From positions 1 to 64,000 of the forward strand of contig JAOUFN010000008.1 of the NCBI GenBank assembly GCA_029858285.1: a stretch of DNA of 64,000 bases, read 5' to 3'. Below the pieces are notes generated by a model. It was not told the DNA's origin and ran no database searches. It worked only from the letters and a program-made list of their open reading frames with translations. A program made the position numbers and the translations under genes. Of this stretch, positions 43,940 through 45,461 are shown in pieces (positions within the stretch are counted from its first letter, which is position 1; each line of letters begins with the position of its first letter). Source of the stretch: Nitrospirota bacterium. Its GTDB lineage: Bacteria; Nitrospirota; JACRHL01.

Positions 43940-44083
43940 TTATGCGGCTTTCTTCAGGTCCACCACCGGCGGATGGGTGGTGGCGCTGTCGGGGCGCTGA
44001 TGAGTCATGCGGGCGCTCATGGCGAGGAAAAGTCCTGCGCCGATGGCAACGGTGGCAATATAGGAGTAGATGACGGTAAACAT
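43940..44083 (-). CDS. Tandem small membrane peptide, copy 3 (47 aa)
   Basis: A 47-residue peptide with one transmembrane helix (residues 3-22) and a basic, proline-containing tail (MTHQRPDSATTHPPVVDLKK). It shares 36 of 47 residues with copy 2. Positive residues after the helix predict the tail inside the cytoplasm. It is preceded by AAGGACACAATCAATC directly before ATG, identical to the leader of copy 2, and lies 43 bases after that gene. The family is not recognised. Being one of three equal-length copies with a conserved tail, it is very likely a real gene. Confidence 0.8.
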   Translation of the reverse strand: MFTVIYSYIATVAIGAGLFLAMSARMTHQRPDSATTHPPVVDLKKAA

Positions 44084-44126
44084 GATTGATTGTGTCCTTG
44101 TGTCGATGTGTTTTCGGGGGGTGTGA

Positions 44127-44270
44127 TTACGCAGCCCGCTTCAATTCCACCACCGGCGGATGGGTGGTGGTGCTGTCGGGGCGCTGCCGGATCATACGGG
44201 CGCTCAGGGCGAGGAACAGGCTCGCGCCGATGGCGGTTGTGAGGATGTAGGCGTAGATGATGGTAAACAT
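44127..44270 (-). CDS. Tandem small membrane peptide, copy 2 (47 aa)
   Basis: A 47-residue single-helix peptide starting MFTIIYAYILTTAIGASLF, with the tail MIRQRPDSTTTHPPVVELKR. It shares 33 of 47 residues with copy 1 and 36 with copy 3. Most differences among the copies fall in the membrane helix; residues 21-47 are nearly constant, suggesting that the tail binds a partner. The leader carries AAGGA. It is separated from copy 1 by 43 bases. Confidence 0.8.
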   Translation of the reverse strand: MFTIIYAYILTTAIGASLFLALSARMIRQRPDSTTTHPPVVELKRAA

Positions 44271-44313
44271 GATTGATTGTGTCCTTGTTTCGAAGGTGTT
44301 TTCGGGGGTGTGG

Positions 44314-44457
44314 TTACGCAGCTTGCTTCAATTCCACCACCGGCGGAAGGGTGGTGGTGCTGTCGGGGCGCTGGCGGCTCATGCGGGCACTCAGGGCGAA
44401 GAACAGGATGGCGCTCGCGGTGGTGATTGCAAGGTAGGTGTTGATGACGGTGAACAT
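44314..44457 (-). CDS. Tandem small membrane peptide, copy 1 (47 aa)
   Basis: A 47-residue peptide, MFTVINTYLAITTASAILFF followed by ALSARMSRQRPDSTTT and LPPVVELKQAA. It is the first copy transcribed. Its leader differs from the others: GGGAG lies 10 bases before ATG 44457. An open frame extends upstream, but the sequence there is not conserved with the other copies. The gap to the cytochrome gene (44458-44702) holds a hairpin at 44588-44606 and no other gene. It is not a recognised subunit; size alone recalls accessory subunits of oxidases or photosystems, but no His or Cys is present. Confidence 0.8.
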   Translation of the reverse strand: MFTVINTYLAITTASAILFFALSARMSRQRPDSTTTLPPVVELKQAA

Positions 44458-44587
44458 GGTTTTTTTACTCCCTTGGTATTTTTTGCCGTGGGTGGCGGAC
44501 CGTCCGCAACCCGCGTATGGGCAAAGAATACAGGGGCAAGCTGAACTGCCCATGAACGCCACGCGAGTTTTTTATTAATTTGTGGAA

Positions 44588-44702: not shown

Positions 44703-45461
44703 TTATTTGTCGTGGCAGACCAGGCAAAGGTCAGGGGGCATGGCCCGCAGGTAGGGGGCCACCCGGTTACTGTGGGGGTTGTGGCAGGAGTCGCACTCCA
44801 CCTTTCCGGACCGGGTGCGCACCGCGCCAAAGCGCATTGCATCCGTGTCGGCCACCTGATAGTAGCGCGAGGTGGGGCCGGTGGGGAGAACCAGTTCACC
44901 CTCCCGCAGGTCGGGCACGGCCCAGTACTGGCGGTGCTGGGGCAGGGGGGTGGGCATCACCCAGTTACCCCGGATGTTCCTGGGATAGGTCAGGCGCACT
45001 GGATGGTCGGGTGATTTGCTGCCGCCGTGCTCCCGGGTCACCAGTTCGCCCTTTTGCTGGTGCACGCCTACGGCCAAGCCACCGTCGTGGCACTCCAGGC
45101 AGGCACTGGAGGGGTCGGCCACCTTGCCAGGGGCCACGAAGGAAGGACCGCCGAACACGCCGCTGGCCCAGCCGCCACCCCACAGGGGGGACGCCACCAA
45201 CTCGTCGCCAGAGGGGGTGTTGGTGGCCATGTGGCACCCCAGGCACGGGTCGCCGTTCAGGGTGGAAAAATCGTGGGTGGTACCGTGTATCTCCTGGCGA
45301 TAGGGGGGCTCCGCCGCCACCGACAGACCGGCCCAGCCCAGCAACCACGAGCCGATCAATATTTGTATCGACATCCGGACCAGTGCGCGGAGCGGTGGCA
45401 GGATTCCCGTATCCAATGCCGGGTGATGCACGGTGTGATGGAACATGCGTGGCGGTGTCAT
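44703..45461 (-). CDS. Tetraheme cytochrome c-type protein
   Basis: The 252-residue exported protein has four CxxCH heme motifs: CLGCH (73-77), CLECH (121-125), CDSCH (223-227) and CLVCH (246-250). The last pair forms a doubled-CxxCH-like unit at the very C-terminus. A hydrophobic signal segment ([20 protein letters not shown]) begins at residue 30, so translation might really start at 45374. However, ATG 45461 overlaps the glmM stop (ATGA), which argues for coupled translation of the longer form. It would act in periplasmic electron transfer. Partner and redox role are unknown. It closes a 14-gene run otherwise devoted to biosynthesis. Confidence 0.85.

Follow-up and report, generated by a model that had tools for sequence, protein, structure and literature searches.

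Three head-to-tail open reading frames (ORFs) on the minus strand of a 64,000-nt stretch of contig JAOUFN010000008.1 (the window), from a groundwater Nitrospirota bacterium (G000), are best read as an operon of small single-span membrane proteins that would be induced by a two-component system (TCS) and would modulate a co-regulated membrane partner; we give this reading a probability of roughly 55%. Their most likely role is that of effectors or modulators whose expression a system of the DbfQRS/SK1 type induces, with a presumed biochemical function and a predicted topology; they are probably small membrane proteins made under stress, not components of the cytochrome next to them. Each ORF is exactly 144 nt long (47 codons plus stop), the array has a period of 187 nt, and a Shine-Dalgarno-like (SD) sequence lies 10-11 nt 5' of the ATG in all three. 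The features concerned are listed below.

44314..44457, minus strand: peptide gene 1 (MFTVINTYLAITTASAILFFALSARMSRQRPDSTTTLPPVVELKQAA), SD AAGGGAG at 44468-44474
44127..44270, minus strand: peptide gene 2 (MFTIIYAYILTTAIGASLFLALSARMIRQRPDSTTTHPPVVELKRAA), SD AAGGA at 44282-44286
43940..44083, minus strand: peptide gene 3 (MFTVIYSYIATVAIGAGLFLAMSARMTHQRPDSATTHPPVVDLKKAA), SD AAGGA at 44095-44099
44525..44556, minus strand: candidate response-regulator-type operator/promoter, TTCAT-N6-TTCAG followed after 10 nt by the -10-like TATTCT (TTCATGGGCAGTTCAGCTTGCCCCTGTATTCT)
44703..45461, minus strand: secreted tetraheme c-type cytochrome with four CXXCH motifs (doubled CXXCH), an adjacent gene that was not counted as belonging to the system

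The initial annotation of this DNA had described three consecutive 144-base genes for 47-residue peptides, and all three ORFs were confirmed, each with its SD-like sequence. Its figure of 33-36 identical residues of 47 holds for copies 1-2 (33, 70%) and 2-3 (36, 77%) and is too high for copies 1-3 (30, 64%); similarly, the 187-base length of the leader-plus-gene units is correct, while the units are not exact repeats, sharing 81% identity with 35 of 43 leader nucleotides matching between copies 2 and 3. Ka/Ks, calculated between copies, was approximately 0.3-0.5 overall, 0.29 between copies 2 and 3 of the array (p 0.0016, Fisher test) and 0.25 between array copy 3 and a copy on contig C9 of the same genome (p 0.0002). 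Because substitutions between copies favour synonymous sites, the array ORFs are very probably genuine protein genes, as had been proposed; the ratio lies below 1 rather than near it among copies within and between loci, significantly so for these two pairs. The array is not a product of chance: G000 carries a second pair elsewhere, and two other genera have relatives.

A profile built from the three array copies was searched against the genomes and recovered seven further relatives, so that homologues do exist elsewhere: two in G000, four in G001 and one in G003. Together with G002 these make up a small class of four genomes, in which peptide relatives are present in three of the four genera. 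The second G000 pair (contig C9, L022 9984-10316, minus strand) begins 12 nt behind a gene with two GAF domains; the orthologue of that GAF gene in G001 (L035 13824-14939) adjoins secreted-protein genes led by the promoter box described below. G001 (groundwater Nitrospirae MAG NC_groundwater_1776), which carries three tandem peptide genes and one solitary one, was the sole genome returned by a collection-wide contig scan. No peptide was detected in G002, though the TCS is present (assembly 91% complete, 540 contigs). Outside the class, no credible member was found among 396 Nitrospirota genomes; other Nitrospirota profile matches were segments within long membrane proteins, or were weak or partial, some with stop codons. 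Weak matches at the ends of contigs C6, C7 and C26 of G061 (L012, L018, L020), which resemble copies of one repeat, were judged to be chance. Relatives were found neither in viral contigs nor in plasmids, no matching family was found in Pfam, NCBIfam (both also searched at relaxed E-value) or PHROG, in agreement with the initial failure to recognise one, and PDB sequences gave no match beyond chance. By these searches the peptides are a previously unnamed, lineage-restricted family of predicted single-helix membrane peptides, and were filed as a new putative family within a known kind, the two-component-regulated small membrane proteins.

The ten members (45-48 residues) align end to end. An N-terminal MF(T) leads straight into the helix (the start is M-F, with Y instead of F in one member), and the helix is followed by a near-invariant Arg, a basic segment, an unconserved middle and a K/R-rich end in AA; across genera only MF(T)...helix...R...K-x-AA persists. 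AlphaFold models a single confident helix that covers most of residues 2-29, and its confidence in the tail is low. There is no charged residue before position 20-27 in nine of the ten members, the exception carrying Glu4, and all ten are net positive, with charge concentrated after the helix. The earlier description of single-helix membrane peptides is thus consistent with the modelled helix, its hydrophobicity and the placement of charges behind it. Because an uncharged N-terminal part is followed by a basic segment after the helix, insertion N-out/C-in is predicted by the positive-inside rule.

Within the window array conservation is higher in the tail than in the helix, as first reported. 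In copies 1-2 synonymous sites are also conserved in the tail (pS 0.16, versus 0.39 in the helix), and their tail conservation probably stems from recent duplication or conversion; in copies 2-3 the two halves have the same pS, 0.38, and pN of 0.16 in the helix versus 0.11 in the tail is a weak difference. A tandem pair in G001 has the reverse pattern, with the helix conserved (pN 0.04) and the tail variable (pN 0.18). The nearly invariant tail is accordingly a property of this array and does not extend to the family, and on these comparisons it reads as local history rather than as a family rule. The proposal that the tail binds a shared partner while the helices differ in their contacts was not borne out, the tail middle being unconserved across genera and the pattern confined to the array; the conserved tail was therefore rejected as a binding site common to the family.

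Alignment of the peptide upstream regions brought out a box, TTCA(G/T)-N6-TTCAG-N10-TA, found upstream of four of the six peptide loci (the window array, the G003 gene and both G001 array promoters). In the four whole genomes the exact box has 15 sites against 0 for reversed-pattern controls, and a longer pattern with one mismatch allowed has 24 against 0; the N6 and N10 spacings are exact at box sites. The exact sites precede peptide genes (four), a secreted-protein family (six), a PepSY-regulator-kinase operon (one) and a 7TM-transglutaminase gene (one), with one further site between MsrB and a b561-DHC fusion, one at a contig end and one chance-like. Allowing one mismatch brings in a second 7TM-transglutaminase, so that this gene is box-led in two genomes, and the orthologous TCS operons in the three remaining genomes. 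By their predicted products, the non-peptide genes led by the box are connected with the envelope or with redox chemistry. Since the box was first noticed at peptide promoters, searching for its pattern is in part circular, a problem that is reduced, not removed, by the operon of family f25 (see below) and by a weight matrix trained on non-peptide sites only. This matrix scored the window box at 28.6 and the G003 box at 30.5, with the next-best position among ~203,600 tested at 12.7, and recovered both G001 array boxes; it placed no box at the peptide loci on G000 C9 and G001 C23. The box at G002 C270 was not counted as a regulon member, having no sensible gene start downstream, nor were the chance-like one-mismatch sites on G002 C101, C279 and C469 and on G003 C111 and C81 (position 74872).

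Several further observations were made around box sites. Between the sites at L070 1501 (G000 C13) and L071 1501 (G003 C54) identity extends past the box (TAATCTTTGACTCAGG); neither site is followed by an obvious peptide, and a conserved leader or small RNA is possible. In the window, the box is overlapped by a terminator-like hairpin (GGGCAG-TTCAGC-TTGCCC, 44534-44551, minus strand), which has a weak T-run after it and may end the cytochrome transcript. The co-regulated secreted proteins are all-helical, of approximately 220 residues, and occur box-led in all four genomes; members lie at the following coordinates.

L131 7089-7787: secreted helical family
L132 5704-6381: secreted helical family
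L133 6208-6870: secreted helical family
L035 11826-13536: secreted helical family
L073 740-1426: secreted helical family

Their model is confident (pLDDT 86) and partially resembles the small metal-binding protein SMBP; they had no Pfam match, a structure search gave no significant fold match, and identity as YfdX was rejected for want of a Pfam match.

Each of the four genomes of the class has the box before its TCS operon. The operon runs cytochrome b561-DHC (dihaem cytochrome c)-PepSY-OmpR-family regulator-kinase, beginning at PepSY in G002; the PepSY, DHC, b561 and OmpR-family domains were confirmed, and the regulators of the class are 70-71% identical to that of G002; the G000 regulator is encoded at C7:15768-16418. 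For the kinase core the best NCBIfam model was PhoQ, at a score far below that model's cut-off. The class kinases carry SGHY(F/Y)..SRSLWD, the published signature of the SK1 sensors that accompany CytB and DHC in Proteobacteria (PMC2909971). PepSY-regulator-kinase modules are of the DbfQRS type, which responds to outer-membrane stress in Vibrio (PMC12714742). Exact box sites occur in only 60 of the 292 Nitrospirota genomes searched beyond the class. Two of these 60, G158 and G254 of family f25 from another part of the phylum, have the box before the same kind of operon, b561-(DHC-PepSY)-regulator-SK1 kinase. In f25 the boxes are near-identical (TTCAGCTTCAATTCAG; L178 4012, L179 5219, L180 5800, and L181 6158 and 6892) and define a similar small regulon, in which the TCS operon is joined by an operon of outer-membrane-efflux-like genes and by a gene for a secreted protein of 169 residues. 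Mainly because box and regulator coincide in two independent lineages, the box is taken as the candidate operator of this regulator.

Membership of the peptides in a putative DbfQRS/SK1-type regulon is well supported by sequence: the putative operator stands both before the TCS operon and at the promoters of four peptide loci out of six, and the kinase, with SGxY.. and RSRSLWD periplasmic motifs, is accompanied by a PepSY partner and an OmpR-family regulator. PepSY, the OmpR-family regulator, the SGHYF/RSRSLWD kinase, b561 and DHC are shared with the DbfQRS and SK1-Orf1 systems, the difference being that the described examples are mostly from Proteobacteria and that, in the portions of those descriptions consulted, neither this operator nor such peptides appear (PMC12714742, PMC2909971). 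Because G002 and f25 have the TCS without such peptides, the distribution suggests that the peptides are an optional output rather than a core or obligate part of the sensor.

Under the preferred reading, the sensor would detect envelope or redox stress, and the phosphorylated regulator would bind the TTCA(G/T)-N6-TTCAG direct repeat, whose second half lies near -35, and would recruit RNA polymerase to the -10 ten bases on. The three peptides would be made together, alongside the b561/DHC module, secreted proteins and repair functions. Each would insert in the inner membrane as a single helix with a cytoplasmic tail and act as a dosage-dependent modulator, in either direction, of a membrane partner that is part of the system or induced by it, possibly the sensor kinase (feedback being one possibility) or its b561/DHC redox module. 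All ten members end in AA preceded by K, R or Q, and the tmRNA tags of G000, G001 and G003 end in ALAA; the C-terminal K-x-A-A may serve as an SsrA-like degron, read by cytosolic proteases such as ClpXP or FtsH, through which the peptide is removed once stress ends. A more specific version, in which the tandem paralogues are interchangeable, rapidly degraded feedback or adaptor subunits of a DbfQRS-type sensor, with different helices tuning the kinase or b561/DHC as a multi-copy counterpart of MgrB with opposite topology, is speculative and would be rather unlikely to hold in full.

MgrB, a membrane peptide of 47 residues induced by PhoP, inhibits the kinase PhoQ; its N-terminus is cytosolic, and its C-terminal region, in the periplasm, contains two essential cysteines, C28 and C39 (PMC2789325, PMC8404706). 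The peptides resemble it in length (47 residues), in having one transmembrane helix and in the place of their genes in an OmpR-family TCS regulon, but have no sequence match to it (Pfam/NCBIfam, relaxed E-value), no conserved cysteine pair in the ten members, charges after the helix with a predicted N-out/C-in (reverse) topology, and tandem paralogues. MgrB would be the closest functional analogy and is not a homologue.

The genes had been placed beside a tetraheme cytochrome, and the location and the four CXXCH motifs are as stated; it is as a link that the adjacency fails. The cytochrome, directly upstream of the array in the window, is conserved in all four genomes of the class, and the peptides adjoin it in two, the gene order glmM-cytochrome-peptide of the window recurring in G003. 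No such peptide follows it in G001 or G002, and the G001 peptide arrays sit elsewhere, next to JAB-like, helicase-like and acylphosphatase-like genes (identified by eye), so the adjacency, judged from gene order, is positional rather than functional, and a cytochrome partner was ruled out as the main link; what accompanies four of the peptide loci instead is the promoter box that they share with the two-component regulon. These neighbourhoods also weigh on the reading of the peptides as accessory subunits, like CydX or CcoQ, of a membrane electron-transfer complex formed by the tetraheme cytochrome or by b561/DHC. Such a role would fit the upstream cytochrome in the window and G003, the box common to b561 and DHC, and the fact that single-helix subunits are common in oxidases. 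We nevertheless hold it to be unlikely, in view of the cytochromes without peptides, the unrelated neighbours of the G001 peptides, the TCS operons of G002 and f25 without peptides, and the lack of a match to Pfam families of such subunits; with CydX/CcoQ the peptides share tiny size, a single helix and proximity to haem proteins, but not family, oxidase linkage or conserved cytochrome adjacency.

It is similarly doubtful that the peptides act in bulk on the membrane as stress effectors with no specific partner, whether envelope-stabilising, depolarising or as a type I toxin-like array of the Ldr/TisB kind. The K-x-AA end and N-terminal MFT/MF are conserved beyond general hydrophobicity, no type I toxin family (Ldr, TisB, Hok) was matched, the 43-nt leaders leave scant room for antisense RNA control, and the locus has no promoter-like antisense site (though antisense RNAs may escape detection) and no Rfam family over threshold, only a sub-threshold miRNA match; these points stand against a short hydrophobic helix with a basic C-terminal tail, tandem copies that raise dosage and a stress-type regulon, all of which would suit bulk action. 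Less probable again is that the box is not the operator of this regulator and that the peptide genes are constitutive or otherwise regulated, with an unrelated function. The box is a candidate operator on sequence grounds, in the window it overlaps the terminator-like hairpin, and two peptide loci lack it; set against this are the exact N6/N10 spacing with zero control sites and the repeated pairing of the box with this TCS operon, seen in two independent classes. The pentamer repeat of BqsR operators is TTAAG-N6-TTAAG, and the box likewise consists of direct pentamers with six bases between them (TTCAG versus TTAAG), but with another sequence and another regulator lineage this is a resemblance only. 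BqsR operators of Pseudomonas are built of pentamers (PMC4682146).

With induction by the DbfQRS/SK1-type system as the preferred reading, an orphan small-protein array gains a candidate regulator, operator and pathway, and a candidate operator is supplied for the widespread, poorly understood PepSY-kinase-b561/DHC systems outside Proteobacteria. If feedback on the sensor is true, small membrane regulators of sensor kinases would have arisen independently, here as expandable gene arrays.
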